Positions 37,875 to 54,685 of a stretch of DNA of 64,000 nt are shown in pieces (positions within the stretch are counted from its first letter, which is position 1; each line of letters begins with the position of its first letter). Both the position numbers and the translations under genes were made by a program. Under the pieces are notes generated by a model, which made no database searches, was not told where the DNA came from, and saw nothing but the letters and a program-made list of their open reading frames with translations. The stretch is from Phreatobacter stygius (GTDB taxonomy: Bacteria > Pseudomonadota > Alphaproteobacteria > Rhizobiales > Phreatobacteraceae), in assembly GCF_005144885.1 (NCBI RefSeq), contig NZ_CP039690.1, positions 4,353,001 to 4,417,000 of the forward strand, read 5' to 3'.

Positions 37875-40208
37875 TCACTCGGCCGCCGCCTTTTGGTCGA
37901 AGCTGCCCTGGGCGTGACGCTTCGGTTTGGCCGCCACCTTCAGGGCCTCGAAGTCGGCGCGGTCTTTCACCGCATTGCGCATCGCCTGGTCCTTGCCCGG
38001 CTGATATTGCTCGGGCTGATGGACGTCGACGCCATACCAGGCCGCCGCCTTCAGCATGAAGGAGGGGTCGGCGAGGTGTGGCCGCCCGAGCGCCACGAGA
38101 TCGGCCCGGCCGGCTGCCAGGATGGTGTTCATCTGATCCGCTGTCGTGATGTTGCCGACGCACATCGTGGCGACATGCGCCTCGTTACGAATGGCGTCCG
38201 AGAAGGGGGTCTGGAACATCCGGCCATAGACCGGCCGGCAGGCCGGCGAGGTCTGACCGGTCGAGACGTCGACGAGATCGACGCCGGCCTCAGTGAAAGC
38301 CCGGGCGATGGCGATCGAATCGGCTTCCGAAATGCCGCCCTCGGCCCAGTCGGTCGCCGAGATGCGCACCGACATGGGCTTTTCGCGCGGCCAGAGATCA
38401 CGCATGGCGCGGAACACCCGGAGCGGGAACCTGAGGCGGTTCTCGACCGATCCGCCATGGTCGTCGGTGCGCCGGTTGGTCAGCGGCGACAGGAACGAGG
38501 CGAGGAGGTAGCCGTGGGCGGCATGCAGCTCGAGCATGTCGAAGCCGCAGCGGATGCCGCGCTCGGTCGCCGCGGCGAACTCCGCGACGATCCGGTCCAT
38601 GCCGGCTTGATCGAGTTCGGCCGGCACCTGGCTGTCCGGATAATAGGGCAGGGGTGACGCCGAAACGATCGGCCAGGCGCCGTCGGGCAGCGGCCGGTCC
38701 ATGCCGTCCCACATCAGCTTGGTGGCGCCCTTGCGGCCGGCATGGCCGAGCTGCAGGCAGATCTTCGCGCGGGAATGGGTGTGGGTGAAATCGACGATGC
38801 GGCTCCAGGCCGCCTCTTGCGCGTCGTTCCACAGGCCGGTGCAGCCGGGCGTGATGCGCGCATCCGGCGCGACGCAGGTCATCTCGGTATAGACAAGGCC
38901 GGCACCGCCGACCGCGCGGGCGCCGTAATGCACCATGTGCCAGTCGATCGGCAGGCCGTCGACCGCCGAATACATGCACATGGGCGAGACCACCGCGCGG
39001 TTCTCGACCGTCAGTTCGCGCAGCTTCAAGGGCTGGAACAGCGGCGGTCTCGGCGCCGCGAGATCGGCGCCCGCCACGCCCTCGGCGAACATCCGGTCGG
39101 TGGTCGCGATGAAGTCCGGGGCGCGCAGGCGCAGGTTGTCATAAGTGATCGCCTTGGCGCGGGTCATCAGCCCGAAGGCGAACTGGCGCGGATCCATGGT
39201 GGCGAAACGGTCGACATGTTCGAACCAGACCAGCGACACGTCCGCGGCGTGCTGGGTGCGCTCGACCTCCTCGCGCCGGTCGGTCTCGTAGGACGCCAGT
39301 GCTGCCTTGACCGTGCCCTTGGCGCGGAAGGCGTCGAACAGCGCGATCGAATCCTCCATGGCGAGTTTGGTGCCGGCGCCGATGGAGAAATGCGCGGTGC
39401 CCTTGGCGTCGCCGAGCAGCACCACATTGTCCTTCACCCAGCGCTGGGTGCGGATCATCGGGAACTGCCGCCAGAGCGAGCGGTTGGTGGTCAGGCCGTG
39501 ACCCGCCAGTTCCTCGGCGAACACGCCTTCCAGGAAACGCGCCGAAGCCTCTTCGTCGAGCTTGTCCAGGCCGGCGCGGACAAAGGTCTCGGGATCGGTC
39601 TCGATCACCCAGGTCGAACGCCCCGGCTCATATTGATAGGTATGGGCAATGAAGATGCCGTGGCTGGTCTCGCGGAAGAAGAAGGTGAAGGCGTCGAGCG
39701 GCCGGGTCGAGCCCATCCAGGTGAACTTGTTGGGGCGCAGGTCGACGTCCGGCTTGAAATGGTCGCGGTTCGCCTCGCGGATGCGCGAATTGATGCCGTC
39801 GGCGGCAACGACCAGGTCGTAATCCCTGAAGGCCCGCAGATCCGGATCCACCTCGGTCTCGAACCGGAGCTCGACACCCAGGGCGCGCGCGCGGTTCTGC
39901 AGCAGGATCAACAGGGTCTGTCGCGAGCAGCCGCAGAAGCCGTTGCCGCCGACCCGGTGGACCGTGTCCTTGAAGTGGATTGCGATGTCGTCCCAATAGG
40001 CGAAATGTTCGGTGATCGCCCGGTAGCTGTCGGCGTCGTAGCGTTCGAAAATGTCGAGGGTGGCGTCGGAGAACACCACGCCGAAGCCGAAGGTGTCGTC
40101 GGCCTTGTTGCGCTCGAACACTGTGATGTCGACCGAGGGGCGCCATTTCTTCATCAGGCAGGCGAAATAGAGCCCGCCGGGTCCGCCGCCGATCACCGCG
40201 ATCCGCAT
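37875..40208 (-). CDS. Bifunctional 2-aminobenzoyl-CoA (or salicylyl-CoA) monooxygenase/reductase
   Basis: A 777-residue fusion. The N-terminal flavin hydroxylase (about 1-380) has [23 protein letters not shown] (about 131-141) and [18 protein letters not shown] (about 262-279). The C-terminal old-yellow-enzyme domain (about 388-765) has [36 protein letters not shown] and [15 protein letters not shown]. This architecture belongs to 2-aminobenzoyl-CoA monooxygenase/reductase and salicylyl-CoA 5-hydroxylase. It hydroxylates and then reduces the aromatic ring of the CoA ester. Neighbouring kynureninase and aryl-CoA ligase genes favour the aminobenzoyl-CoA role. It is divergent from the SDR operon, with a paired promoter region at 40284-40354. 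Confidence 0.9.
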
Positions 40209-40283
40209 GGGGTGCCTCCTCGATCCCGTTGCCTGCAGGCGCGCCGAACGCGGGAGCCGACGGTCATCCGCAAGGTGCAAATT

Positions 40284-40311
40284 ACTTTAAGCCTAAAATA
40301 AATTCGGACAA
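40284..40311 (-). promoter_or_regulatory. Promoter with embedded operator element for the monooxygenase/reductase gene
   Basis: On the minus strand, TTGTCC (40311-40306), a 16-bp spacer and TAAAGT (40289-40284) form a plausible sigma-70 promoter 76 bp before the start codon. The spacer and -10 region contain the motif TTTAAGCCTAAA (40286-40297, plus-strand reading). The 24 bases 40286-40309 are an inverted partner of 40329-40352, with 19 of 24 identical. The same promoter architecture in both directions suggests joint control by one regulator. Confidence 0.6.
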
Positions 40312-40326
40312 GCCGCCGCATGCCTC

Positions 40327-40354
40327 TTGCTCAAATTTATTTGAAGCTTAAAAC
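40327..40354 (+). promoter_or_regulatory. Promoter with embedded operator element for the SDR-ligase operon
   Basis: TTGCTC (40327-40332), a 16-bp spacer and TAAAAC (40349-40354) end 19 bp before the SDR start codon. The spacer carries AATTTATTTGAAGCTTAAA, which matches the divergent promoter's element in inverted orientation. An operator lying across spacer and -10 would let a bound repressor block RNA polymerase. The MarR-type protein encoded at 49939-50448 is the best candidate regulator in the window. Confidence 0.6.
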
Positions 40355-40373
40355 ATTCAGGCGGGAGGTCGCG

Positions 40374-41171
40374 ATGGTCGTTCCAAGCTCCGCTGGTCAC
40401 TCGTCCCAAGGTCGTCCGATGGCCGGCAAGCGTGCGCTGGTCACCGGCGGCGGCCGCGGCATCGGCCGCGCGGTCGCACGAGGCCTGTCGATGGCGGGCG
40501 TCCATGTCATCGTGCTCGGCCGGACCGAGGCGAGCCTCGCCGAGGCCGTCGCGGCGGGCGATGCGGCTGAATTCATCATTGCCGACGTCACCGATCCGGA
40601 GGCGCTCGAACGTGCTGTCCGCGCGGCCGAGGCCACCGGTCCGATCGACATCCTCGTCAACAATGCCGGCCATGCCGAGACGGTTCCCGCCAAGCGCCTG
40701 GAGCGCGGCCATTTCGACCGCATGATAGCGCTGAACCTGACCTCCGTCTTCGACGGCATCCGGCTGGTCCTGCCGGCCATGCTGGCGCGCGGCCAGGGCC
40801 GGATCATCACGATCGCGTCGACCGCCGGCCTGACCGGCTATCCCTATGTCTCGGCCTATTGCGCGGCCAAGCACGGCGTCGTCGGGCTGACCCGCGCGCT
40901 CGCCAAGGAAGTTGCGACCTCGGGTGTCACCATCAACGCGGTCTGCCCGGGCTTCACCGAGACCGATCTCGTCGCCGGCTCGATCGAGACCATCGTCGCC
41001 AAGACCGGTCGCACGCCGGACGCGGCGCTCGCCGATCTGACCCGCTCCATGCCCATAGGCCGCCTGATCAAGCCGGAAGAGGTGGCCCATGCCGTCCTCT
41101 GGCTTGCCTCCGACGAAGCGGCCGCCGTCACCGGCCTCGCCCTGCCGGTCGCCGGCGGCGAAATTGCTTGA
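40374..41171 (+). CDS. SDR family 3-hydroxyacyl-CoA dehydrogenase-like oxidoreductase
   Basis: A 265-residue short-chain dehydrogenase. All motifs are standard: TGGGRGIG (24-31), NNAG (96-99), Ser149, Tyr162 and Lys166 (YCAAK), and the PGFTETDLV segment. In this cluster it most likely oxidises a 3-hydroxyacyl-CoA in the beta-oxidation-like steps after ring reduction. The ATG at 40374 is taken because GGGAGG precedes it; an upstream ATG at 40320 lies inside the promoter element. It is the first gene of a five-gene operon that includes hydratase, dehydrogenase, ligase and RidA. Confidence 0.87.
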
Positions 41172-41181
41172 GGAAACCTCC

Positions 41182-42012
41182 ATGCACACCATCCCGCATC
41201 GCCAGCGCCTGACCGACTGGAAAGCCACACATTTCCTCTGGGAGGTGAAGGGTAAGGTTGCGACCATCACGCTGAACCGGCCGGACCGGAAGAACCCGCT
41301 GACTTTCGAGAGCTATGCCGAACTCGGCGACCTGTTCCGGGCACTGGCCTTCGACACCGAGATCAAGACCGTGGTGGTGACCGGCGCCGGTGGCAATTTC
41401 TGCGCCGGTGGCGACGTGTTCGAGATCATCGGCCCGCTGACCGAGCGCGACATGCCGGGGCTCCTGCAGTTCACCCGCATGACCGGCGAACTGGTCAAGG
41501 CGATGCGTGCCTGTCCGCAGCCGATCATCGCGGCGATCGACGGCATCTGCGTCGGCGCCGGCGCCATCATGGCCATGGCCTCCGACCTGCGGATCGGCAC
41601 AGCGAAAGCCAAGGTGGCCTTCCTGTTCAACAAGGTCGGGCTTGCCGGCTGCGACATGGGCGCCTGTGCCATCCTGCCGCGCCTGATCGGCCAGGGGCGG
41701 GCTTCCGAACTGCTCTATACCGGGCGCATGATGGGCGGCGAGGAAGGGCTTGCCTGGGGTTTCTTCAACCGGCTCGCCGCGCCCGAGGCCGTGCTGGCCG
41801 AGGCGACCGCGCTGGCCGACGAGATTTCGGCCGGCCCGACCTTTGCCAATGGCATCACCAAGCGCATGCTGCACATGGAATGGACCATGTCGGTGGACGA
41901 GGCGATCGAGGCCGAGGCCATGGCCCAGGCGATCTGCATGGACACGCAGGATTTCCGCCGCGCCTTCGATGCCTTCGCGGCCAAGCAGAAGCCGGTCTTC
42001 GAGGGGAATTGA
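41182..42012 (+). CDS. Enoyl-CoA hydratase/isomerase family protein
   Basis: A 276-residue crotonase-fold protein. [15 protein letters not shown] provides the first oxyanion-hole region, and the second is in [21 protein letters not shown]. The catalytic region reads [21 protein letters not shown], with Asp where classical hydratases have Glu, so hydrolase or ring-opening chemistry is possible. The start follows GAGGAAA. In the aminobenzoyl-CoA pathway such enzymes hydrate or cleave the alicyclic CoA intermediate. It is 10 bp after the SDR gene and 3 bp before the acyl-CoA dehydrogenase gene. Confidence 0.87.
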
Positions 42013-42015
42013 GCC

Positions 42016-43212
42016 ATGCTGGCCCCTGATCTTCTCGCGCTGCCGTTCTTCGACGATGAGCACCGGGCCTATGCCGCCCGCCTCGGCGCATGGGCCGAGA
42101 CGGCCATTCCGCCACTGGTCGACCACCACGATGTCGACGGCTCCTGCCGCCGGCTCGTCGCAGCCATGGGCGAGGCCGGCTTTCTGAAGGCTTGCGTGCC
42201 GGGTGACCAGGGCGGCCTGCGCGAGGCGCTCGATGTCCGCACGCTGTGCATCACCCGGGCAACGCTCGGTTATGTCGACGGGCTCGCTGATTTCGCCTTC
42301 GCCATGCAGGGATTGGGTACCGGGCCGATCTCGCTGTTCGGCACGCCGGAACAGAAGGCCGCGTGCTGTGCCTCGGTGCGCGACGGCCGGGCGATCGCCG
42401 CCTTCGCCCTGTCCGAGCCGGACGCCGGATCCGACGTCGCGGCGCTCTCGACCACGGCGACCAGGGTTCCCGAGGGCTACCGGCTCGATGGCCTGAAGAC
42501 CTGGATTTCCAACGGCGGCATTGCCGATCGTTATGTCGTCTTCGCCCGCACCGGCGAGGCGCCGGGCGCGCGCGGACTGTCCGCCTTCATCGTGCCGGCG
42601 GATACGCCTGGCCTGACCATTGCGGAACGTATCGAGGTGATCGCACCGCATCCGCTGGCGACGCTGAAATTCGACAATTGCCTGGTGCCGGCCGGTGCCC
42701 TGCTCGGCAAGCCCGGCGACGGTTTTCGCATCGCCATGGCAACCCTCGACGTGTTCCGCTCGACCGTCGCTGCCGCCGCGCTCGGCATGGGCAACCGGGC
42801 GCTGTTCGAGGCGACCGAACGGGCGGTGAAGCGGCAGATCTTCGGCGCGCCGCTCGCCGGTCTCCAGCTCACCCAGGCGGCGCTCGCCGATTCCGTCGCC
42901 GAGCTCGAAGCCTCGGCCCTGCTGATCTTCCGCGCGGCCTGGGCCAAGGACCAGGGCAAGGCGCGGATCACCAAGGAGGCGGCCATCGCCAAGATGGTGG
43001 CGACCGAAAACGCCCAGAAGGTGATCGACCGGGCGATCCAGGTGTTCGGCGGCCTCGGCGTCAAGAAGGGCGAGAAGGTCGAGGAGCTCTATCGCGATAT
43101 CCGGGCGCTGCGCATCTACGAGGGCGCGACCGAAGTCCAGAAGATCGTCATCGCCCGTGCTCATCTGGCCGAGCGCGAAGCCCGCGCGCATCTGGCCAAA
43201 GCTGCCGAATAG
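42016..43212 (+). CDS. Acyl-CoA dehydrogenase
   Basis: A 398-residue FAD enzyme. Family motifs are [18 protein letters not shown] (flavin and substrate contact), the middle beta domain [18 protein letters not shown] and the C-terminal helical domain ending [35 protein letters not shown]. The last stretch contains the usual Glu of the YEGATE motif as possible catalytic base. It introduces a double bond into an acyl-CoA and needs electron-transfer flavoprotein, which is not encoded here. It fits beta-oxidation of the ring-reduced intermediate. Confidence 0.9.
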
Positions 43213-43220
43213 GGAGATCG

Positions 43221-44864
43221 ATGATGTCCGCAGTTTCAGCGCATATCGACGATTTCGCCGCCCGCGGCCTGCCGCCGGCCGCGCTTCAACCGGTTTTCCT
43301 GTTCGACCGGCCGGAGTTGAAATATCCCGGCCGGATCAACTGCGTGGCGGATTTCGTCGACAGCCATGTGGCGGCGGGCAAGGGCAACCGCATCGCCATC
43401 CTGGCGCCCGGCGGCCTCGCCTGGACCTATGCCGACCTGCAGGTCGAGGTGAACCGCATCGCCAATGTCCTGGTGCAGGATTTGGGCCTGATCGCGGGAA
43501 ACCGCGTGCTGCTGCGCGCGCCGAACAATCCGATGATGGTCGCGGCCTATCTGGCCGTCATCAAGGCCGGCGGCATCGTGGTCGCAACCATGCCGTTGCT
43601 GCGCGCCAAGGAGCTCAGCGTCATCATCGACAAGGCCGAGGTCGGCCTGGCGCTGTGCGACGACCGGCTGACCGATGAGCTGGCCAAGGCTGCCGCGCAG
43701 GCGGCTCCGCTCGAGCGCATCGTCACCTTTGGCGAGCTCTCGAGCCGCGCGGCCGGCGCATCGCCCGTCTTCACCCCGGTCGACACGGCGGCGACCGACA
43801 TTTGCCTGTTCGGTTTCACCTCGGGCACCACCGGCACGCCGAAATGCACCATGCATGGCCATCGCGATCTCCTCGCGATCTGCGATGCTTATGGCCGGAA
43901 TGTCCTGAAGCCCAGTGCCGATGATCGCTTCATCGGATCGCCGCCACTGGCCTTCACCTTCGGGCTCGGCGGCCTCGTGCTGTTCCCGTTCCGGGTCGGC
44001 GCCTCGACCGTGCTCCTGGAAAGAGCCCCGCCCGGCGAACTCCTGCCGGCCATTGCCGCCTTCAAGCCGACCATTTGCTTCACCGCTCCAACAGCCTATC
44101 GGGCGATGATCCCGGCTCTCGGCGATCACGACTGGCACTCGCTCAGGAAATGCGTCTCGGCTGGCGAAGCCCTGCCGAAAGCGACCTTCGACGCCTGGAA
44201 ACAGGCGACCGGCCTTGAACTGATGGACGGCATCGGCGCCACCGAAATGCTGCACATCTTCATATCCGCGCCCGAGGGCAAGATCCGTCCCGGAGCCACC
44301 GGCCTGCCGGTGCCGGGCTACGAGGCCAAGGTGATCGGCATGGACGGCGAGGAACTGGGGCCGGGCCAGCCGGGCCGGCTTGCGGTGCGCGGCCCGACCG
44401 GCTGCCGCTATCTTTCCGACGAGCGCCAGAGCCGCTATGTCATCGACGGCTGGAACGTGACCGGCGACACCTATGTCGTCGATGCCGACGGCTATTTCTG
44501 GTACCAGGCGCGCAGCGACGACATGATCGTCTCGGCCGGCTACAATATTGCCGGCCCTGAAGTGGAATCCTGCCTGCTGAGCCATCCCGCCATTGCCGAA
44601 TGCGGCGTCGTCGGCCAGCCGGACGAGGAACGCGGTACCATCGTCAAGGCCTATGTGGTGCTGAAGCCCGGCTTTGCTGCGGACAAGGTCTTGGCCGAGG
44701 AACTGCAGGCTTTCGTCAAGGCCGAGATCGCGCCTTACAAATACCCGCGCGTGATCGCTTTCGTGGACCAATTGCCACGTACCGAAACCGGCAAGCTGCA
44801 GCGCTTTGCGCTGCGCGAGATCGCCGCGCGCGATGCTGCCTCAAGCCGCACGGCGGCGGAGTAA
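43221..44864 (+). CDS. Benzoate-CoA ligase family protein, likely 2-aminobenzoate-CoA ligase
   Basis: A 547-residue acyl-adenylate-forming ligase. The P-loop FGFTSGTTGTPKCTMHGHRD (198-217), the motif GIGATEMLHIFISA, the hinge YFWYQARSDDMIVSAGYNIAGPEVE and the catalytic Lys in PRTETGKLQRF (about 530) are present. GATEMLHIFISA is the form seen in benzoate- and 2-aminobenzoate-CoA ligases. It activates anthranilate with ATP and CoA; benzoate or salicylate cannot be excluded by sequence alone. The ATG at 43221 follows AGGGAGA. Kynureninase in the convergent operon supplies anthranilate. Confidence 0.88.
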   Translation: MMSAVSAHIDDFAARGLPPAALQPVFLFDRPELKYPGRINCVADFVDSHVAAGKGNRIAILAPGGLAWTYADLQVEVNRIANVLVQDLGLIAGNRVLLRAPNNPMMVAAYLAVIKAGGIVVATMPLLRAKELSVIIDKAEVGLALCDDRLTDELAKAAAQAAPLERIVTFGELSSRAAGASPVFTPVDTAATDICLFGFTSGTTGTPKCTMHGHRDLLAICDAYGRNVLKPSADDRFIGSPPLAFTFGLGGLVLFPFRVGASTVLLERAPPGELLPAIAAFKPTICFTAPTAYRAMIPALGDHDWHSLRKCVSAGEALPKATFDAWKQATGLELMDGIGATEMLHIFISAPEGKIRPGATGLPVPGYEAKVIGMDGEELGPGQPGRLAVRGPTGCRYLSDERQSRYVIDGWNVTGDTYVVDADGYFWYQARSDDMIVSAGYNIAGPEVESCLLSHPAIAECGVVGQPDEERGTIVKAYVVLKPGFAADKVLAEELQAFVKAEIAPYKYPRVIAFVDQLPRTETGKLQRFALREIAARDAASSRTAAE

Positions 44865-44868
44865 AGAC

Positions 44869-45315
44869 ATGACCAAACCGACGACCCCCGTGATCCCGTT
44901 TCCGCTTGCCGACGAGGACGAGCGCCCGGTGACGCTCAATCCCAAGGGCTGGCCGGAGCCGCGCGGTTATGCCAACGGCATGAGCGCCAAGGGCCGCCTC
45001 ATCGTCACCGGCGGCGTGGTCGGCTGGGATGTCATGGGCAATTTCAAACCGGATTTCGCCGCCCAGGCGCGCCAGTGCTTCGAGAACATCCGGGCGATCC
45101 TCGCCGAGGGCGGCGCCAGCCCGCACCACGTCGTGCGGCTGACCTGGTATGTCACCGATGTCGAGGAATACCTCGCCCATCTCAGACCGCTCGGCCAGGC
45201 CTATCGCGAGATCTTCGGCCAGCATTATCCGGCCATGGCGGTGGTGCAGGTCGTCAGGCTGGTCGAAAAGGCCGCCAAGATCGAGATCGAGGCGACCGCG
45301 GTGGTTGCCGAATAA
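44869..45315 (+). CDS. RidA family protein (enamine/imine deaminase), first copy
   Basis: A 148-residue RidA/YjgF-type protein: LIVTGGVVGWDVMGNFKPDFAAQARQCFENIRAILAEGG, then VVRLTWYVTDVEEYLAHLRPLGQAYREIFGQHYPAMAVV. The Arg that binds carboxylates in RidA deaminases is not obvious here, so substrate handling may differ. RidA proteins hydrolyse reactive enamines/imines, and one subgroup is 2-aminomuconate deaminase. As last gene of the aminobenzoyl-CoA operon it could remove the amino group from an alicyclic enamine. It ends 3 bp before the convergent kynureninase stop. Confidence 0.82.
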   Translation: MTKPTTPVIPFPLADEDERPVTLNPKGWPEPRGYANGMSAKGRLIVTGGVVGWDVMGNFKPDFAAQARQCFENIRAILAEGGASPHHVVRLTWYVTDVEEYLAHLRPLGQAYREIFGQHYPAMAVVQVVRLVEKAAKIEIEATAVVAE

Positions 45316-45318
45316 TCC

Positions 45319-46500: not shown

Positions 46501-47567
46501 GTCGAATAGACGAAGCCGAGGCGCGCCTGGACACTGGCCGGCAGGTCCGGCACGGCGGCGCGCGGGATCAGGAAGGTGGAGAGCCGGAACAGGTCGGCAA
46601 AGACGCGATGCCGTTCGGCCGTGGTGCGCAGATAGGCGTGACCAGATGAGCCGCCGGTGCCGATCTTGACCCCGATCATCCGTTCGACCATCAGCGCGTG
46701 GCGGTAGCGCCAGAGCGTCATGGTCTCGTCGATATCCATGAGCGTGGCGAGCAGCCGGAAGGCCGGTTGCACTGCCGGCTTGTCGCGGTAGAGCGTGATG
46801 AACAGGGCGGCCTGGACGGCGGGCCCCGACAGGCGCCAGCCGCCGCCGTCGCCCTCGGGCGCGAAGATGGCGGCAAAGGAGGCGATCGCCTTGTCGATCG
46901 CCTTCAGTTCGCGTTCGCGCTTTTCCTCGGGCATCGCCCTATCGGCGCGTATGAAGTCGGCGTCGCGGGCCAGGTGTTTCTCGACCGCCTGGCGATAGGC
47001 GTCGCGAAAGCTTGCGCCGCCCCAGTCGAGGAACGGCGTGCGGGCGAGCCACTGGTCGAGCATGACGAAGACGGTCGGCCGCTCGCGCGCCTCCGACAGC
47101 GCCGTTCGGTCTGCCGGTGACAGCCGCTCCTCGATCGCCTTGTCGTCGAGCGGCACGCGGGTTTCGGCGGCCAGCCCCAGCCTGGTCTCGATGGCGCGGA
47201 ACTGCAGCGACTGGAAACCCGAGGCCGGCATCAGGAGGTCACGGAAGTCCAGGAAGTCGAACGGCGTCATGGTCTCCAGCACGTCGAGCTGGGCGACCGT
47301 CAGCTTGAGGATCTCGTGGATGCGCTCGAGGTCGTGGACGATCCGCGCCATGGCGTCGTCGGAGACCGGCACGGCGCCGAAATCCCGCTCGACCCGGTCG
47401 AGCTCATGCAGGATCTGCTTGAACCAGAGTTCGTAGGCCTGGTGGACGATGATGAACAGCATCTCGTCATGGGCATCGACGCCCTCTTTCAGGCTTTCCG
47501 GCTGCTGCGATGTCAGCAGCCGGTCAAGCTTCAGATAGTCGGCGTAATAGACCGGTGCGCGCGCCAT
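46497..47567 (-). CDS. kynA: Tryptophan 2,3-dioxygenase
   Basis: A 356-residue heme dioxygenase that opens the indole ring of L-tryptophan to N-formylkynurenine. The first signature, HDEMLFIIVHQAYELWFKQ, contains active-site His42. The second, LWRYRHALMVERMIGVKIG, contains the axial heme ligand His290. GTGGSSG (303-309) binds substrate. Length lies between the short bacterial and longer eukaryotic forms, with an extra segment around 130-240. The start follows GGAGGA. N-formylkynurenine formamidase is not found in the window, so that step must be done elsewhere or by an unrecognised enzyme. Confidence 0.93.
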   Translation of the reverse strand: MARAPVYYADYLKLDRLLTSQQPESLKEGVDAHDEMLFIIVHQAYELWFKQILHELDRVERDFGAVPVSDDAMARIVHDLERIHEILKLTVAQLDVLETMTPFDFLDFRDLLMPASGFQSLQFRAIETRLGLAAETRVPLDDKAIEERLSPADRTALSEARERPTVFVMLDQWLARTPFLDWGGASFRDAYRQAVEKHLARDADFIRADRAMPEEKRERELKAIDKAIASFAAIFAPEGDGGGWRLSGPAVQAALFITLYRDKPAVQPAFRLLATLMDIDETMTLWRYRHALMVERMIGVKIGTGGSSGHAYLRTTAERHRVFADLFRLSTFLIPRAAVPDLPASVQARLGFVYST

Positions 47568-47621
47568 GGCCGGATCCTCCGCAATGGACGGCTGGCGGTG
47601 AGGCCGGCCGTCACGACCATT

Positions 47622-48083
47622 TCAGCCGTGGATCTTGATGATCGCCTCGACCTCGACTGTGATCCCCATCGGCAGCGAGCCCATGCCGACCGCAGAGCGG
47701 GCGTGCCGGCCGCGATCGCCGAGGACGGCGACGATCAGGTCGGAAAAGCCGTTGATGACGCGCGGATGATCGCCGAAGTCGGATACGGCATTGACCATGC
47801 CGAGCACCTTGACGAATTCGACCTTGGCGAGATCACCGCCCGCCGCCGCCTTGGCGGAAGCGAGGATCTGCAGGCCGACCATCTTGGCATGTTCATAAGC
47901 GGTCTCGACGGTGACGTCGGCGCCGACCTTGCCGGTGGCGAAGGCGCCATCGGCCTTGCGCGGGCCCTGGCCAGCCAGATAGGCGATGTCGCCGACCCGT
48001 TTCCACGGCACGTAATTGCCCGCTGGCGCTGGCACCGCCGGCAGTTCGAGGCCCATCTTGGCAAGCTTGTCTTCGGGGGTCAT
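47622..48083 (-). CDS. RidA family protein, second copy
   Basis: A 153-residue RidA-fold protein of the longer type: ELPAVPAPAGNYVPWKRVGDIAYLAGQGPRKADG, then TAYEHAKMVGLQILASAKAAAGGDLAKVEFVKVLGMVNA and VGMGSLPMGITVEVEAIIKI. It belongs to a different RidA subgroup from the copy at 44869-45315. The start follows CAGGAG. It sits between tryptophan 2,3-dioxygenase and the D-threonine-aldolase-like gene on the minus strand, whose PLP chemistry would produce 2-aminoacrylate-like enamines, the classic RidA substrate. Confidence 0.85.
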   Translation of the reverse strand: MTPEDKLAKMGLELPAVPAPAGNYVPWKRVGDIAYLAGQGPRKADGAFATGKVGADVTVETAYEHAKMVGLQILASAKAAAGGDLAKVEFVKVLGMVNAVSDFGDHPRVINGFSDLIVAVLGDRGRHARSAVGMGSLPMGITVEVEAIIKIHG

Positions 48084-48129
48084 TGGCGGCTCCTGAATGG
48101 TGGGAACGGACTGTGGCGCGAAGCGCTGG

Positions 48130-49212
48130 TCATCTCAATTTGCCGCGGGCGGCGACCGGCAGGATGCCGACGATCTCGTCGCCGCGCACCATCACCACTT
48201 CGTCGACCATGTTGACCACGACGCAGACATGGTTGGGCACGATACGCACGACGTCGCCGACCTTCGGCCGCTCGTTGCAGCGGGTCAGGTCCAGCATGCC
48301 ATGTTCTTCGGCGAAGCGCGCGATCTTGGCTTCCGGATGGTCCAGGATCAGGCCGAAGCCTTCGAGCCCGCCGCCCGGGTCCGCCGTCAGCGTCTTGGAG
48401 CCGGCATCCAGGATGCCACGATCGGCGGCGGCCCTGCTCACCACGGTCGAATAGACCTGCAACGCGCAGTCGTCCCAGGTGGCAACGCCCGCCGCCACCT
48501 GCATGCGGTCGTTGTAGATATAGGTGCCCGGGCGGTGCTCGGTCGCGCCCTTCAGCTTGCCGACATTCGGCATGTTGGGCGAGCCGCCGGTCGAGACGAT
48601 GGTCGGTTCCAGGCCGGCGGCGCGGACACCGGCCAGCGCCTCGTCGAAAAAGCGCTGCGCCACCGCCCAGCCGTCTTCGGTCGGGTAGAACATGAAGCCC
48701 TTGAAGGCGATGCCGGGCGAGGCTGCGATCAACTTGGCGAGTTCGATCGCCTCGCCAGGCGTCTCGACGCCGGCGCGCTTGCGCCCGGTGTCGCACTCGA
48801 TCACCACGCCGAGGTCGCGGCCGGCAATGGCACCGGCCTGTGGCAGGCCGGCGATGACAACCGGATTGTCGGCGGCAACCGTCACCTCGGCCTTGCCGAG
48901 CAGTGCGCCGAGGCGCGCCATCTTCTCGTCACCGATCAGGTTGTAGCTGATCAGAATGTCGTCGATGCCGGCCGCCGCCATCACCTCGGCCTCGCCGATC
49001 TTCTGGCAGGTAATGCCCTTGGCGCCGGCGGCGACCTGCAGCCTCGCGAGTTCCGGGCTCTTATGCGTCTTGATATGGGGCCGGTTGCGGACACCGGCTG
49101 CATCGCAGGCCGCCTGGACACGCGCGATGTTGCGCTCCACCCGGTCCATGTCGATGACCACGGCCGGCGTTCCGTAGTCGCGGGCGATCTTGGCGGCGAG
49201 CGGTGTGGTCAT
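48130..49212 (-). CDS. D-threonine aldolase/D-serine dehydratase-like PLP enzyme
   Basis: A 360-residue fold-type III PLP protein. The N-terminal alanine-racemase barrel has the motif RPHIKTHKSPELA, with Lys48 as Schiff-base residue. The C-terminal domain closes with VPNHVCVVVNM, whose His-x-Cys pair binds the divalent metal in D-serine dehydratases and D-threonine aldolases. It cleaves or dehydrates a D-hydroxy-amino acid. Its place inside a tryptophan/kynurenine operon is unusual and suggests either D-amino acid uptake by the neighbouring importer or a new substrate. The start follows GAGGA. Confidence 0.85.
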   Translation of the reverse strand: MTTPLAAKIARDYGTPAVVIDMDRVERNIARVQAACDAAGVRNRPHIKTHKSPELARLQVAAGAKGITCQKIGEAEVMAAAGIDDILISYNLIGDEKMARLGALLGKAEVTVAADNPVVIAGLPQAGAIAGRDLGVVIECDTGRKRAGVETPGEAIELAKLIAASPGIAFKGFMFYPTEDGWAVAQRFFDEALAGVRAAGLEPTIVSTGGSPNMPNVGKLKGATEHRPGTYIYNDRMQVAAGVATWDDCALQVYSTVVSRAAADRGILDAGSKTLTADPGGGLEGFGLILDHPEAKIARFAEEHGMLDLTRCNERPKVGDVVRIVPNHVCVVVNMVDEVVMVRGDEIVGILPVAARGKLR

Positions 49213-49233
49213 GACAGGTCCTCGATGCGGCGT

Positions 49234-49935
49234 TCAGACGTGCAGGTAGCGGTCCTTCAGGTCGGGGCTCGCGATGAAGGCGGCGCTCGACCCTTCCCAG
49301 ACGATCCGGCCCTTTTCAAGGATCAGGTGCCGGTCGGCCAGTTTGACCAGAGCATCGACATTCTTGTCGATCACCAGGATCGATTGGCCGTCCTGCTTCA
49401 AACGCTTGAGGCAGGACCAGATCTCGGCGCGGATGACCGGCGCCAGGCCCTCGGTCGCCTCGTCCAGCACCAGAAGTTTCGGATTGGTCATCAGCGCCCG
49501 GCCGATGGCGAGCATCTGCTGTTCGCCGCCGGACAGCTGATTGCCCATGTTGCGGCGGCGCTCCTTCAGGCGCGGGAAGAACTCATAGACCCGCTCGAGC
49601 GTCCAGGCTGCGGCCTTGCTCTCACGATTGGCCGATGTGGCGACCAGGTTTTCCTCGACATTGAGGTTCGGAAAGATCTGCCGGCCCTCGGGTACCAGGC
49701 CGAGACCGGCCTGCGCCACCCGGTAGGGCGGCCGCCCGGCCAGCGCCAGGCCGTCGACATCGATGGCGCCGCCGCGCGGCTTCAACAGGCCGAAGATCGA
49801 GCGGATCGTGGTGGTCTTGCCCATGCCGTTGCGGCCGAGCAGTGTCACCACCTCGCCATTGGCGACGCTGAGCGACACACCGAACAGCACCTGCACGTCG
49901 CCATAACCGGCTTCCAGATTGGTGACGCTGAGCAT
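49234..49935 (-). CDS. livF: Branched-chain-type ABC transporter ATPase LivF
   Basis: A 233-residue ATPase. Walker A is GRNGMGKTT (about 36-44), signature is LSGGEQQML, Walker B is LLVLDEATEGLAP, and the C-terminus ends SPDLKDRYLHV as in LivF. It energises a HAAT-family importer with livG, livM and livH. It is separated from livG by the MarR gene, an unusual order. It starts 3 bp after the MarR stop. Confidence 0.92.
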   Translation of the reverse strand: MLSVTNLEAGYGDVQVLFGVSLSVANGEVVTLLGRNGMGKTTTIRSIFGLLKPRGGAIDVDGLALAGRPPYRVAQAGLGLVPEGRQIFPNLNVEENLVATSANRESKAAAWTLERVYEFFPRLKERRRNMGNQLSGGEQQMLAIGRALMTNPKLLVLDEATEGLAPVIRAEIWSCLKRLKQDGQSILVIDKNVDALVKLADRHLILEKGRIVWEGSSAAFIASPDLKDRYLHV

Positions 49936-49938
49936 GGC

Positions 49939-50448
49939 CTACTCCGCCGCTTCGACGCGTTGCGCCAGGGCGCGGGCGACCGAGGCCTTGGTGCGGCCGA
50001 GCAGGCTCATCAGCACCTCGCGTTCGCCCGGTTGCAGGTCGCCCAGAAGTTCGGTCATCCAGACGCCGTGCTCGCGCGCCATGCGCGAGAAGTCGGCATG
50101 ACCCTTGTCGGTCATGACGATGCGCTGGGCGCGCCGGTCGGTGGCGTCGCGGCGGCGCTCGACATGGCCCTGCTCGACGATCCGGTCGACCAGGCCCGTG
50201 ACGTTGCCGTTGGTCACCATCATGCGCCGCGAAATCTCGCCGAGCGTCAGGCCCTCCGGCGACTTGTCGAGCTGAGCGAGCAGGTCGAAGCGCGGCAGCG
50301 TGATGGCGAAACGGTCCATCAGCCGGCGGCGGATCTCCCGTTCGATCAGATTGGTGCAGGTGAGCAGCCGGAGCCAGAGCCGGAGCTCCGGGCGGGCATC
50401 GCGCGGCTGATGGGCGAGCCGGCTTTCGGCGTCGAGAGGCTCGTTCAT
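49939..50448 (-). CDS. MarR family transcriptional regulator of the tryptophan/anthranilate island
   Basis: A 169-residue regulator with a MarR winged helix: ITLPRFDLLAQLDKSPEGLTLGEISRRMMVTNGNVTGLVDRIVEQGHVER, then the wing DATDRRAQRIVMTDKG. Helices before and after form the dimer interface. Its ATG overlaps the livG stop (ATGA, 50445-50448), so it is co-translated with the importer. MarR proteins in aromatic-CoA pathways often respond to the CoA-thioester. The TTTAAG-CTAAA elements at 40286, 40329 and 54664 are its likely operators; this is inference from position. Confidence 0.88.
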   Translation of the reverse strand: MNEPLDAESRLAHQPRDARPELRLWLRLLTCTNLIEREIRRRLMDRFAITLPRFDLLAQLDKSPEGLTLGEISRRMMVTNGNVTGLVDRIVEQGHVERRRDATDRRAQRIVMTDKGHADFSRMAREHGVWMTELLGDLQPGEREVLMSLLGRTKASVARALAQRVEAAE

Positions 50449-51200
50449 GCGAACTCCTCCTCGCCGAGATAGGCTTCGCGCACCGCCGGGTCGGCCCTGA
50501 CGGTTTCGGGCGTGCCCGAGGCGATGAGACGGCCATAGACCAGCACCGAGATGCGGTCGGCCAGACGGAACACCGCATGCATGTCGTGCTCGACCAGCAC
50601 GATCGGATAGCGGGCCTTGAGTGCCAGCAGCACCTCGACCATGCGTTCGGTCTCCTCGCGCCCCATGCCGGCCATCGGCTCGTCGAGCAGCAACAGTTTC
50701 GGCCGCGAGACCAGCGCCATGGCCAGTTCCAGCTGGCGCTTCTCGCCATGCGACAGGCTGGCTGCCGGCGCCCCGGCCCTGGCGCCGATGCCAACCTGCT
50801 CGAGCGCCGCCATGGCCTGGTCGTTCAGGGCGCGTTCGGCCGAAACCCGGCCGAAGAAACGGAACGACGAGCCGGCATGGGCCTGCGCCGCGGTCGCGAC
50901 ATTGTCGAGCACCGAGAAGCCCGGCAGCACCTGGGTGATCTGGAACGAGCGGGTGAGGCCCTTGAGCGCCCGGGCATGGATCGGCAGCCGGGTGATGTCC
51001 TCGCCGGCAAAGGTGACGCTGCCGGCGTCCAGCGACAATTCACCGGTGATCTCGCCGATCAGCGTGGTCTTGCCGGCGCCGTTCGGGCCGATGATCGCAT
51101 GGAGCTCGTTGGCGCCGATATCGAGCGTCACGTCGTCGGTGACGACGAGCGCCCCGAACGCCTTGCGCAGGCCCTTGAGCGACAGGATCGGGCTGCTCAT
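50445..51200 (-). CDS. livG: Branched-chain-type ABC transporter ATPase LivG
   Basis: A 251-residue ATPase. Walker A is GPNGAGKTT, the switch is LTRSFQITQVLPGFSVLDN, signature LSHGEKRQLE, Walker B LLLLDEPMAGMG, and the C-terminus DPAVREAYLGEEEFA as in LivG. The frame is open far upstream antisense to nothing meaningful, and the ATG at 51200 overlaps livM by 4 bp, so this start is secure. It ends within the MarR start codon. Confidence 0.92.
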   Translation of the reverse strand: MSSPILSLKGLRKAFGALVVTDDVTLDIGANELHAIIGPNGAGKTTLIGEITGELSLDAGSVTFAGEDITRLPIHARALKGLTRSFQITQVLPGFSVLDNVATAAQAHAGSSFRFFGRVSAERALNDQAMAALEQVGIGARAGAPAASLSHGEKRQLELAMALVSRPKLLLLDEPMAGMGREETERMVEVLLALKARYPIVLVEHDMHAVFRLADRISVLVYGRLIASGTPETVRADPAVREAYLGEEEFA

Positions 51201-52180
51201 CGGCCGGTCCCCCTGTCGATCAACCGGATAATGCCGCCGCGCGCGAAGATCGCGACCAGCACCACCAGCGGCCCGAAGATCGCCTTCCAGTGCTGGGTGA
51301 TCTCGGCCAGCCATTCCTCGACGATGATGATGCCGATGGCCCCGATGATCGCGCCATGCAGCGTGCCTGTGCCACCCAAGACCACCATGGCGATGAGCTC
51401 GCCGGAGCGCGGCCAGGTCATGTAGGCGGGCGCCACGAACAGGCCGAGATTGGCGAACAGGGCGCCGGACAGCGCGCAGATGCCACCGGCGATGACATAG
51501 GCGGTCAGCCGGTAGCGGAACGGATCGAAGCCGAGCGCCCGCATGCGCCGCTCGTTTTCCTTGGCGCCTTTCAGGATGCGGCCGAAACGCGAGCCGACAA
51601 TGGTCCGGAGCAGCAGGTAGCAGGCGATCAGCAGGCCAAGCACGACGAAATAGAAGTTGGTGTCGTTCTGCAGCAGGCGCGCGCCGGCAACGACATTGCG
51701 CTGGGCCATGCGCAGGCCGTCGTCGCCGCCATAGGCCGACAGCGAGGTGGCGGTGAAGAAGGCCATCTGGGCGAAGGCCAGCGTGATCATGATGAAATAG
51801 ACGCCGCGGGTCTTCAGCGAGATGGCGCCGGTGACCAGGGCGAACAGGGCGCCGGTGGCGATCGCCACGGGAAAGGCGACCAGCGCTTCGCCGGTGCCGT
51901 GGAACATCAGGATCGCCGCGGCATAACCGCCGAGCCCCATGAAGGCGGCATGGCCGAACGAGATCAGAGCGCCGTAGCCGAGGATCAGGTCCAGAGACAG
52001 GGCGGCGATGCCGAAGATCATGGCGCGGGTGATCAGCGACAGGGTGTAGCGGTCGCCCGGAAAGATCAGCGGCATGACCGCGAGGCCGGCGAACAGGACG
52101 AGCGGGATCGCCAGGCGCTTCCAATCCCAGCCGAGTGCCGGAGCGGGTGTGGACGAGGCGAGGGGCGAAACATCGGTCAT
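51197..52180 (-). CDS. livM: Branched-chain-type ABC transporter permease LivM
   Basis: A 327-residue permease with about ten helices. Family segments are LSLDLILGYGALISFGHAAFMGLGGYAAAIL, GAISLKTRGVYFIMITLAFAQM, KENERRMRALGFDPFRYRL and VVLGGTGTLHGAIIGA. It forms the membrane channel with LivH. Starts and stops are tightly packed: livH stops 3 bp upstream, and livG overlaps by 4 bp. Confidence 0.92.
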   Translation of the reverse strand: MTDVSPLASSTPAPALGWDWKRLAIPLVLFAGLAVMPLIFPGDRYTLSLITRAMIFGIAALSLDLILGYGALISFGHAAFMGLGGYAAAILMFHGTGEALVAFPVAIATGALFALVTGAISLKTRGVYFIMITLAFAQMAFFTATSLSAYGGDDGLRMAQRNVVAGARLLQNDTNFYFVVLGLLIACYLLLRTIVGSRFGRILKGAKENERRMRALGFDPFRYRLTAYVIAGGICALSGALFANLGLFVAPAYMTWPRSGELIAMVVLGGTGTLHGAIIGAIGIIIVEEWLAEITQHWKAIFGPLVVLVAIFARGGIIRLIDRGTGR

Positions 52181-52183
52181 GGC

Positions 52184-53107
52184 TCAGCCCTTCGCCGGGA
52201 ACAGGCCGGTCGGCCGGAAGAACAGCACGGCAGCCATCAGGATGTAGATCGACATGGACGCGATCGCCGGCCCGATGGTGCGGGCGTCCGACGGTGACAG
52301 CCCGGTCATGCGCAGGAGATCGACCGAGAACGAGCGCAGCAGCGTATCGGTCAGGCCGACGATCAGTGCGCCGATGAACGCGCCGCGGATCGAGCCGATG
52401 CCGCCGATGACGATGACCACGAAGGCCAGGATCAGGAGGTTGTCGCCCATGCCGGGCTCGACCGACAGGACCGGCGCGGCCATGCAGCCGGCAAAGCCCG
52501 CCAGCATGGCGCCGAAGCCGAACACGATCATGAACAGGCGGCGGATGTCGACACCGAGCGCCGAGACCATGGGCGCATTGGTGGCGCCGGCGCGGATCAG
52601 CATGCCGACACGGGTCTTGGTCACCACCAGGTAGAGCCCGAGCGCGACCGCAAGGCCGGACAGGATGATGGCGAGCCGCCAGATCGGATAGAGCACGCCG
52701 TCGGCAATGGCGACCGCGCCCGACAGCATGTCCGGCACCGGCACCTGCAGCGGGGCCGCCCCCCAGACGATCTTGACGCCTTCGTTGAGGAACAGGATGA
52801 CCCCGAAGGTGGCGAGCACCTGTTCCAGGTGGTCGCGGTCATAGAGGTGGCGCATGACCAGCACTTCGAGCAGCAGCCCGAAGGCCAGCGCCGAGATCAG
52901 CGCCAGCACCAGGCCAATGAAGAAGTTGCCGGTCCAGGCGACGAACATGGCCGCGAGATAGGCGCCCAGCATGTATTGGACGCCGTGCGCGAGGTTGATG
53001 AAGTCCATCACGCCGAACACCAGGGTCAGGCCGGCGGCGATCAGGAACAGCAGCACGCCGAGCTGCAGCCCGTTCAATGTCTGGATGATGAGAAGCGTCG
53101 AGGACAT
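52184..53107 (-). CDS. livH: Branched-chain-type ABC transporter permease LivH
   Basis: A 307-residue permease: LNGLQLGVLLFLIAAGLTLVFGVMDFINLAHG is the N-terminal hallmark, and AFVVIVIGGIGSIRGAFIGALIVG is the second. The substrate could be branched-chain amino acids, aromatic amino acids or aromatic acids; the catabolic context favours tryptophan, kynurenine or anthranilate. A 274-bp gap with a palindromic element separates it from the binding-protein gene upstream. Confidence 0.92.
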   Translation of the reverse strand: MSSTLLIIQTLNGLQLGVLLFLIAAGLTLVFGVMDFINLAHGVQYMLGAYLAAMFVAWTGNFFIGLVLALISALAFGLLLEVLVMRHLYDRDHLEQVLATFGVILFLNEGVKIVWGAAPLQVPVPDMLSGAVAIADGVLYPIWRLAIILSGLAVALGLYLVVTKTRVGMLIRAGATNAPMVSALGVDIRRLFMIVFGFGAMLAGFAGCMAAPVLSVEPGMGDNLLILAFVVIVIGGIGSIRGAFIGALIVGLTDTLLRSFSVDLLRMTGLSPSDARTIGPAIASMSIYILMAAVLFFRPTGLFPAKG

Positions 53108-53190
53108 AGGCTAGGTCGGGCTCATTGGCTGTTTCGGGCTGGTCCCCATGTGATGCCAAGCACTCAGGCCACCTCTCGGCGATGCACCGA

Positions 53191-53311
53191 CGTCACCCCC
53201 GGCCGAGGCGAAGCCGAGGGGAGGGGGTCCAGGAGCCAACGCATTGCCCTGCAACCCCTGGATCCCCTTCCCCTCACTCGCCCTGTCGGGCTCGCTCGGC
53301 CGGGGATGACG
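53191..53311. repeat. REP-like palindromic element between binding-protein and permease genes
   Basis: Outer arms CGTCACCCCCGGCCGAG (53191-53207) and CTCGGCCGGGGATGACG (53295-53311) are inverted repeats with one mismatch in 17. Between them further complementary tracts occur (GGGGAGGGGGTCC at 53218-53230 against GGATCCCCTTCCCC at 53260-53273), so the whole 121 bp folds into a long imperfect hairpin. It resembles the mosaic intergenic palindromes common in Rhizobiales and related genomes. Placed after the receptor gene and before livH, it could stabilise receptor mRNA and lower permease expression. Confidence 0.75.
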
Positions 53312-53381
53312 TAAGCGCCCTCAAACGATGCAGGTCCCAAACCGAACGCGGCCCCACCAAGAAGGCGGCGCCGCGATTTCC

Positions 53382-54557
53382 TCACCACCGCATCGGGCAG
53401 TCCTGGGCGTAGACGTCGGTGTAGTTGGTGAACACCCGCTCGACGATCTCGGTCTGGAACTTGCCGTCCGGCCGCTTGGCGGCGCGCACGGTGTAGAAGT
53501 CCTGGATCGGGTAGTGGTTGTTGGCGAAGCGGAAATTGCCGCGCAGCGAGACGAAATCGGCCTTGCGCAGCGCGGTGCGGACCGCGTCGCGATTGGTCAG
53601 GTTGCCGTTGACCGCACGCACCGCGCTGTCGATCAGCATGGCCGAGTCATAGGCCTGCATGGCATAGGAGCCCGGCACATAACCGAAGGCCGCTTCGAAA
53701 TCCGCGACGAATTTCTTGTTCTGCGGATTGTCCATGTTCGGCGCCCAGGTCATGCCGCCGATCATGCCGATGGCCGAATCCTGCTGGGCCGGCAGCGTCG
53801 ATTCATCGACCGTGAAAGCCGACAGGAACGGCGTCCGGTCGACCAGGCCGGCCTGGCGGTACTGGCGGACCAGGTTCACGCCCATGCCGCCCGGCATGAA
53901 GGTGAACAGGCCGTCGGGCCTGGACGAGCCGATGCGTGCGAGTTCGGCGGCGAAGTCGAGATGGCCGAGCGGGGTGAACGCCTCGTCGACGATCTCGCCG
54001 CGGAAATGCCGCTTGAAGCCAGCCATGGCGTCGCGGCCGGCCTGGTAGTTCGGCGCCAGCAGGAACACCCGGCGCATGTTGCGGGCCTGGGCATAGGCGC
54101 CGAGCACCTCATGCACCTGGTCGTTCTGATAGGAGGTGACGAACATGTTCTCGTGGCAGGCCTTGCCGGCATAGCTCGACGGGCCGGCATTGGCGCTGAT
54201 CAGGAAGGCGCGCGAATTGACCACCGGCGCCTGGATCGCCTGGAGCACGTTGGAGAAGATCGGGCCGACGACGAAGTCGACCTTGTCGCGGTCGATCAGG
54301 CCCTGGACACGCTGGATCGCGACATCCGGCTTCTGTTCGTCGTCGACCACGATGACCTGGACCTCGCGGCCGCCCATCTTGCCGCCGAGCTGGCGGATCG
54401 CCAGCTGGAAGCCGTCGCGGGCATGCTGGCCGAGCACGGCGGAGGGGCCGGACAGGGTCTCGATGACGCCGATGCGGATCGGCTCCTGGGCTTGGGACGC
54501 GGTGGCGGCCAGGGCGAAGGCCAGGCCGGCAGCCAGCGTCGACAGAACGCGCTTCAT
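53382..54557 (-). CDS. Branched-chain-type ABC transporter substrate-binding protein
   Basis: A 391-residue periplasmic receptor from the ATG at 54557. A Sec signal peptide (KRVLSTLAAGLAFALAATASQAQ) precedes IRIGVIETLSGPSAVLGQHARDGFQLAI, the type I fold start. VVDDEQKPDVAIQRVQGLIDRDKVDFVVGPIFSNV and KACHENMFVTSYQNDQ are also typical. It resembles receptors for aromatic acids as much as for amino acids. It is the first gene of the long minus-strand transcript reaching kynU, and an operator-like element lies about 107 bp before its start. The 21 codons upstream of the chosen ATG are unlikely to be translated. Confidence 0.9.
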   Translation of the reverse strand: MKRVLSTLAAGLAFALAATASQAQEPIRIGVIETLSGPSAVLGQHARDGFQLAIRQLGGKMGGREVQVIVVDDEQKPDVAIQRVQGLIDRDKVDFVVGPIFSNVLQAIQAPVVNSRAFLISANAGPSSYAGKACHENMFVTSYQNDQVHEVLGAYAQARNMRRVFLLAPNYQAGRDAMAGFKRHFRGEIVDEAFTPLGHLDFAAELARIGSSRPDGLFTFMPGGMGVNLVRQYRQAGLVDRTPFLSAFTVDESTLPAQQDSAIGMIGGMTWAPNMDNPQNKKFVADFEAAFGYVPGSYAMQAYDSAMLIDSAVRAVNGNLTNRDAVRTALRKADFVSLRGNFRFANNHYPIQDFYTVRAAKRPDGKFQTEIVERVFTNYTDVYAQDCPMRW

Positions 54558-54663: not shown

Positions 54664-54685
54664 ATTTTAAGTCTAAAGCAATTCG
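54664..54685 (-). promoter_or_regulatory. Third copy of the TTTAAG-CTAAA operator element
   Basis: TTTAAGTCTAAA (54666-54677) differs at one base from TTTAAGCCTAAA at 40286-40297. The match continues, with a one-base gap, into the ATTCG on its right (54681-54685). Read on the minus strand it contains TAAAAT as a possible -10 (54669-54664). It lies about 107 bp upstream of the receptor gene and 13-34 bp before tag, so control of the importer operon is the more likely purpose. Confidence 0.6.

Follow-up and report, generated by a model that had tools for sequence, protein, structure and literature searches.

A putative 2-aminobenzoyl-CoA degradation cluster with a tryptophan front end in Phreatobacter stygius

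Gene content and organization of the cluster

The DNA analysed here, referred to as the window, is a 64,000-nt stretch of the Phreatobacter stygius genome (7.35 Mb in a single contig, NZ_CP039690.1; positions 4,353,001 to 4,417,000), and its interval 37875-54557 carries a gene cluster which is likely to be a regulon for the aerobic degradation of anthranilate as its coenzyme A (CoA) ester, 2-aminobenzoyl-CoA, with a tryptophan front end joined on (Table 1). The core comprises a fused monooxygenase/reductase (ABM), an SDR dehydrogenase, an enoyl-CoA hydratase family protein (ECH), an acyl-CoA dehydrogenase (ACAD) and a CoA ligase, and the front end consists of a tryptophan 2,3-dioxygenase (TDO) and a kynureninase-like enzyme (KynU), located at the end of a gene string for a Liv-type importer. 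All of the genes that an earlier note on this DNA had named in the interval are real, in that they are intact open reading frames (ORFs) with family support. Four further genes, unlisted in that note, are also present: two Rid-family genes (RidA1 and RidA2), a MarR-family regulator, and a pyridoxal phosphate (PLP) enzyme resembling D-ser-dehydratase and BhcC.

ABM is divergent from SDR, which opens the plus-strand string SDR-ECH-ACAD-ligase-RidA1 (intergenic gaps of 3-10 bp). The minus-strand string reads LivK-LivH-LivM-LivG-MarR-LivF-PLP enzyme-RidA2-TDO-KynU, with gaps of -4 to 54 bp except between LivK and LivH, and RidA1 and KynU converge with their ends 4 bp apart. The interval is not a chance grouping, because the entire order recurs, with the whole gene set, in the congener G101. 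Named genomes gave 458 KynU relatives, and among the best 80 of these the whole arrangement was found only at L087 and L089, the latter being the same contig as G101, and in part at L088, on a short contig. A nicotinate phosphoribosyltransferase gene (35917-37233, plus strand) adjoins ABM both here and in six congeners, with no evident pathway link.

Table 1. Features of the cluster, in window coordinates
Feature	Position	Strand	Evidence
ABM-type fused enzyme, 777 aa; proposed 2-aminobenzoyl-CoA monooxygenase/reductase	37875..40208	-	NF006101; PF01494 + PF00724; motifs
Operator-like palindrome copy 1, 2 mismatches to TTTTAAGCTTAAAA	40285..40298		kept in congeners
Operator-like palindrome copy 2, 1 mismatch to TTTTAAGCTTAAAA	40340..40353		ABM-SDR gap
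SDR dehydrogenase	40374..41171	+	PF00106; 28/30 ABM neighbourhoods
Enoyl-CoA hydratase family protein (ECH)	41182..42012	+	NF006107; 25/30 ABM neighbourhoods
Acyl-CoA dehydrogenase (ACAD)	42016..43212	+	Pfam; 23/30 ABM neighbourhoods
Benzoate-CoA-ligase-like; proposed 2-aminobenzoate-CoA ligase	43221..44864	+	TIGR02262 just below cut-off; 4wv3; 27/30 ABM neighbourhoods
RidA1, Rid family, Met at conserved-Arg position; proposed enamine deaminase	44869..45315	+	PF01042; alignment to 1qu9 and others
Divergent kynureninase-like PLP enzyme (KynU)	45319..46500	-	AlphaFold model, nearest PDB fold 1qz9; TDO neighbourhood
Tryptophan 2,3-dioxygenase (TDO), long form	46497..47567	-	PF03301 317.6 bits; 4hka E 7.5e-81
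RidA2, YjgF_endoribonc family	47622..48083	-	PF14588; 6/30 ABM neighbourhoods, Phreatobacter loci only
D-ser-dehydratase/BhcC-like fold-type III PLP enzyme	48130..49212	-	PF14031, PF01168; 6/30 ABM neighbourhoods, Phreatobacter loci only
LivF-like importer ATPase	49234..49935	-	family match
MarR-family regulator; proposed palindrome binder	49939..50448	-	below all curated cut-offs; MarR in 25/30 ABM neighbourhoods
LivG-like importer ATPase	50445..51200	-	family match
LivM-like importer permease	51197..52180	-	family match
LivH-like importer permease	52184..53107	-	family match
LivK-like importer substrate-binding protein; proposed cargo anthranilate	53382..54557	-	PDB relatives 4zpj, 4evq, 4ey3
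Operator-like palindrome copy 3, 3 mismatches	54665..54678		108 bp before LivK; congeners with 2-mismatch copies there

Enzymes of the proposed CoA pathway

ABM combines an FAD monooxygenase domain and an old-yellow-enzyme domain in one protein, with the motifs GGGPGG, GDAKG and HAAHGY at residues 7, 266 and 562, and scores 1115.7 bits against NF006101 (cut-off 1078). ECH is well above the cut-off of NF006107 (484.7 bits versus 330), while the ligase falls slightly below that of TIGR02262 (372.9 versus 375.25 bits); its closest solved relative is the anthranilate-CoA ligase 4wv3 (E 8e-98). The composition expected of an aerobic 2-aminobenzoyl-CoA pathway, that is, ligase, hydratase and dehydrogenases beside ABM, was found in the window and across 30 ABM neighbourhoods, which were selected for identity or linkage, with three named plasmids added, and are therefore not a random sample (counts in Table 1). 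We propose from these sequence matches that the ligase is a 2-aminobenzoate-CoA ligase and ABM a 2-aminobenzoyl-CoA monooxygenase/reductase, and the conserved gene set probably serves to import anthranilate and to degrade it as the CoA ester.

The fitting model NF006101 carries the name salicylyl-CoA 5-hydroxylase, and the two enzymes could accordingly be imagined to act on salicylate and to yield gentisyl-CoA. This appears highly improbable, given that the fused old-yellow-enzyme domain suits a dearomatising reduction, that the best PDB relative of the ligase is an anthranilate-CoA ligase, and that the co-occurrence with TDO described below points to anthranilate as well; moreover, no gentisate-pathway gene was noticed among the annotated genes of the cluster, a genome-wide search for one not having been made.

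The tryptophan front end

TDO was assigned to its family by PF03301 and by the stretches HQAYELWFKQ, SLQFR, WRYRH and GTGGSSG, which align to 4hka and which we take to hold the haem and substrate residues, although it reached only 174 bits against TIGR03036 (cut-off 390.7). KynU is more divergent. It matched Aminotran_5 with 31 bits and KYNU_C with 23.6 bits (cut-off 27), no PDB sequence was matched at E<=0.001, and no kynureninase NCBIfam model was among its matches, so that the kynureninase name required further tests. An AlphaFold model built with 29 sequences (mean pLDDT 89.7, pTM 0.90) returned kynureninase 1qz9 as the first Foldseek hit, with E 7.2e-20, TM 0.81, a root-mean-square deviation of 3.7 Å and 22% identity. 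The PLP-lysine stretch GGYKYA and the stretch DGYHGF are invariant or almost so in the 29 sequences. Furthermore, TDO lies within 3 kb of KynU in 70 of the 80 best KynU loci. Relatives on Streptomyces plasmids, at 41% identity, are annotated as kynureninase. At a Bradyrhizobium locus (L090) the KynU-TDO pair adjoins what appears by eye to be a meta-cleavage set (tautomerase, semialdehyde dehydrogenase), and KynU may feed another route there.

The front end is variable within the genus. Four congeners (G019, G132, G065 and G160) hold ABM, ligase, RidA1, RidA2, PLP enzyme, MarR and importer, and have no KynU and no TDO anywhere in their genomes; a fifth (G184), whose contig begins at the ligase, is also without both. 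In a FastTree phylogeny based on a concatenation of nine cluster proteins (for G065 without ECH and ACAD), the window genome paired with the metagenome-assembled genome (MAG) SCN18 with support 1.0, both carrying the kyn genes, and G101 fell among the kyn-less genomes, where one node has a support of 0.32. Two insertions into the same site would fit less well than repeated loss of the kyn genes or their exchange among congeners.

Co-occurrence and linkage across the order

The association of the two halves was evaluated in 199 genomes sampled from the order, with ABM called at E<=1e-100 and genomes treated as independent in the tests. ABM was present in 62 genomes and TDO in 47, with 44 having both; that is, ABM occurs in 44 of the 47 TDO genomes versus 18 of the 152 others (odds ratio 109, Fisher p 6.7e-26, without phylogeny correction). 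The window-type KynU was found in only 7 of the 199, each time beside TDO, and all seven hold ABM (p 2.2e-4). From 49 of the best-80 loci, 48 KynU genomes were searched for ABM, and 30 have it.

Nor is the physical linkage unique to the window genome. TDO and ABM lie within 15 kb of each other in 11 of the 44 genomes with both, and this, together with an annotated Roseivivax record (see below), rules uniqueness out. Some of the linked clusters include canonical KynU and an alpha/beta-hydrolase formamidase: one (G029) reads ABM-SDR-MarR-ECH-ACAD-ligase-canonical KynU-short TDO, with a RidA gene further along, and two others (G188 and G093) additionally carry the formamidase homologue in the cluster. 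In Microvirga pudoricolor (L132) ligase and ABM stand beside LivKHMGF-formamidase homologue-short TDO-window-type KynU, and L132 and L145 are the loci of the best-80 set in which ABM falls within the KynU locus. The front end has thus been joined using non-orthologous parts.

A palindrome shared by the two halves

A palindrome, TTTTAAGCTTAAAA, was derived from the regions upstream of ABM-SDR and LivK in the window and in congeners. The window contains three copies resembling it, versus 0.07 expected, and with up to 2 mismatches only two sites exist in the genome, both in the ABM-SDR gap. Among the best 30 of the 62 ABM loci, a set which includes the window and its relatives and is thus not independent, 24 show the palindrome at <=2 mismatches within 350 bp upstream of ABM, with six perfect copies, whereas 0.005 were expected from dinucleotide shuffles. 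The sequence before ABM in Paracoccus and Phyllobacterium is a variant, TTTCAAGCTTGAAA.

The palindrome also occurs before kyn genes. It was found at <=2 mismatches in 8 of 79 KynU-type promoters versus 0.04 expected, namely L090 (Bradyrhizobium), L094 (Amorphus), L138 (a Pseudolabrys MAG), L149 (a Rhodopseudomonas MAG), L142, L154, L155 (Bosea) and L153 (Chelatococcus). Seven of these eight genomes were searchable and all seven have ABM, which is found in 23 of 41 others (p 0.036). In six of the seven the palindrome stands in front of ABM as well, versus 18 of the 30 ABM loci overall in that comparison. Over 1.41 Mb of KynU loci, 16 copies were counted versus 0.22 expected from base composition, and one of them (L156) is outside such a promoter. 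Among 30 TDO loci from the order sample, 5 have it at <=2 mismatches, three of these being formamidase-TDO-canonical-KynU operons unlinked to ABM, and at L203 a 1-mismatch copy sits between a divergent formamidase gene and a ligase-KynU-TDO operon. This sharing suggests that the anthranilate-CoA half and the tryptophan half act as one unit in several related bacteria, and we propose that the MarR protein may be the palindrome binder. The route from tryptophan via anthranilate to 2-aminobenzoyl-CoA put forward in the earlier note is thus well supported by co-occurrence and by the shared operator.

Points against a joined tryptophan pathway

A number of observations weigh against this interpretation and are collected here. 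First, the identity of KynU: cysteine desulfurases and C-DES follow kynureninase closely in the fold search, so that the fold supports the name, while more weight falls on the TDO neighbourhood. Second, the operator: the third copy in the window has 3 mismatches, 71 of the 79 KynU-type promoters and 25 of the 30 TDO loci are without the palindrome at <=2 mismatches, and at <=3 mismatches the genome itself has 10 sites versus 32 for the reversed control, which means that a bare count of palindromes is no evidence. Third, 18 of the 48 KynU genomes searched are without ABM, some of them being MAGs. Fourth, LivK and LivH are separated by 274 bp, and a single transcript down to KynU is therefore not assured; a GC-rich inverted repeat at 53216-53275, inside this gap, could weaken read-through.

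Fifth, there is no formamidase gene within the cluster. Canonical kynB was not found in the genome either: of its three PF04199 proteins, two scored 39 and 32 bits against TIGR03035 (cut-off 223) and the third did not match it, results low enough to exclude a cyclase-type KynB as the formamidase. The description of the island as complete can thus not be retained. An alpha/beta-hydrolase candidate formamidase (39% identity) is encoded at genome position 4562415, about 160 kb away. At 5.97 and 3.22 Mb of the genome (L030 and L031) a PF04199 cyclase gene is paired with a gene that by eye resembles fumarylacetoacetase, the two pairs being alike.

Finally, a 3-hydroxyanthranilate dioxygenase (3-HAO)-family gene is present at genome position 4591183 (L198 9115-9681), about 174 kb past the window end and near a second Liv-type importer. 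The claim that catechol and 3-hydroxyanthranilate are bypassed is consequently valid for the gene set of the cluster and does not extend to the genome as a whole; the anthranilate dioxygenase AntA model had no match in the genome, with no control genome above its cut-off. With the 3-HAO-family gene in the genome, with congeners retaining the whole unit in the absence of TDO and KynU, and with KynU-TDO lying apart from ABM in Bradyrhizobium (L090, L093), one could argue for a unit dedicated to anthranilate only, to the end of which TDO and KynU came by chance and feed, for example, a 3-hydroxyanthranilate route. We regard this as quite unlikely in view of the recurrent linkage with two non-orthologous TDO/KynU types, the presence of ABM in nearly all TDO genomes, and the palindrome before unlinked kyn genes.

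Importer cargo

The earlier note had regarded the importer as dedicated to tryptophan or kynurenine, and TDO and KynU do end the importer gene string, as they also follow LivKHMGF and the formamidase homologue in M. pudoricolor. This assignment is nevertheless doubtful, and we consider it unlikely: the importer is retained at its position in the four congeners that have neither TDO nor KynU, which makes anthranilate the likelier cargo, and the tryptophan/kynurenine system was set aside on that ground. Moreover, LivK is encoded in 15 of the 30 ABM neighbourhoods, and in nine of these, including those of Paracoccus denitrificans PD1222 and Phyllobacterium, the DNA fetched contains no TDO; in a tenth (G194) TDO is 9.75 kb from ABM, beyond the fetched part. 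Some of the PDB relatives of LivK are presumably aromatic-acid binders, although a literature search by four PDB codes found no paper.

RidA1 as a candidate deaminase

Relatives of RidA1 were found in 23 of the 30 ABM neighbourhoods, all of them among the 27 that carry the ligase; in two of the four ligase-bearing misses (G184, G194) the ligase ends the fetched stretch. RidA1 belongs to the Rid family but is not of the Arg-type RidA: a Met aligns with the conserved Arg of 1qu9, 3vcz, 2dyy and other RidA proteins, and the same Met is seen in 22 of the 23 relatives (21 by motif and G160 by alignment, G029 being unread). The conserved Arg of RidA proteins binds the substrate carboxylate, and Rid proteins have a broad activity towards enamines and imines. 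A substrate without a free carboxylate, such as a CoA thioester, would explain why RidA1 needs no Arg, and we propose on the basis of this alignment that RidA1 may deaminate the CoA-bound enamine product of ABM. According to PMC3534580, the product formed by ABM is a CoA-bound enamine, and a C7H8O4 CoA ester present in Arthrobacter cells on anthranilate may be its deaminated form. No open-licence paper combining RidA and 2-aminobenzoyl-CoA was found, which leaves absence from print unproven.

With such a broad activity and with PLP enzymes (KynU and the D-ser-dehydratase-like enzyme) encoded nearby, RidA1 could instead have a general housekeeping role, protecting PLP enzymes, and perform no pathway step. 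This is a real possibility, if the lesser one, since RidA1 follows the ligase also in clusters whose core has no PLP enzyme gene, and since both its frequency beside the ligase and the conserved Met speak for a specific role. The PLP enzyme itself scored 195 bits against NF045642, below the cut-off, and it stands with RidA2 between importer and TDO only in six Phreatobacter loci of the 30 neighbourhoods.

Comparison with known systems and proposed mechanism

Like the aerobic 2-aminobenzoyl-CoA pathway of Azoarcus (Aromatoleum) evansii, whose chemistry is described in passages of PMC4539516, the cluster has a ligase, a fused monooxygenase/reductase and beta-oxidation-type genes; in the window, a TDO/KynU pair is joined on at the importer end. 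Arthrobacter sp. Rue61a also has an anthranilate-CoA ligase and ABM, and anthraniloyl-CoA was detected there, but its pathway is fed by quinaldine, and the searched passages of PMC3534580 do not mention kynurenine genes (no match to kynurenin or tryptophan). ABM clusters with kynA also stand in annotated records, for example on a plasmid of Roseivivax sp. THAF197b, which brings together ABM, SDR, Liv importer, MarR, ECH, ACAD, kynA, ligase and RidA, though with a short TDO, in another order, and with no KynU in the fetched stretch. In antimycin biosynthesis, as outlined in passages of PMC3869250, AntN, AntP and AntF similarly combine TDO, kynureninase and a ligase that activates anthranilate, after which an oxygenase acts on the thioester-bound anthranilate, but on a carrier protein and for biosynthesis rather than degradation. 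The iad loci, in the passages of PMC9613470 concerned, likewise encode MarR-regulated aromatic catabolism ending in anthranilate; they start from indoleacetate through isatin, and could be a second feeder of the same downstream route. No open-licence paper combining kynurenine, kynureninase and 2-aminobenzoyl-CoA was found, a result that leaves absence from print unproven.

In the mechanism that we propose, the two facing transcripts and ABM would share a MarR-type operator, and the importer operon would end with TDO and KynU. TDO would open tryptophan to N-formylkynurenine, a formamidase encoded elsewhere would yield kynurenine, and KynU would yield anthranilate and alanine, while free anthranilate would be taken in by the importer. 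The ligase would then form 2-aminobenzoyl-CoA, RidA1 would release the amino group as ammonia after the action of ABM, and SDR, ECH and ACAD would begin a beta-oxidation-like breakdown. MarR may repress the whole until anthranilate or its CoA ester appears. More tentatively, and as a possibility that we would put a little short of probable, the pathway would include a dedicated RidA1 deamination step (Met for Arg, the carboxylate being masked as CoA thioester), and one MarR/TTTTAAGCTTAAAA regulon would repeatedly have captured non-orthologous TDO/kynureninase pairs, physically or via the operator only, so that much of the order would degrade tryptophan by this route as standard.

If the proposed mechanism is right, tryptophan, and perhaps auxin via the iad route, would drain to anthranilate-CoA and not to catechol in many alphaproteobacteria. 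RidA1 would be a candidate for catalysing the deamination, and these ABM genes would bear a misleading name in the databases, 'salicylyl-CoA 5-hydroxylase/oxidoreductase'. The palindrome, in turn, offers a testable regulon for finding more feeder genes.

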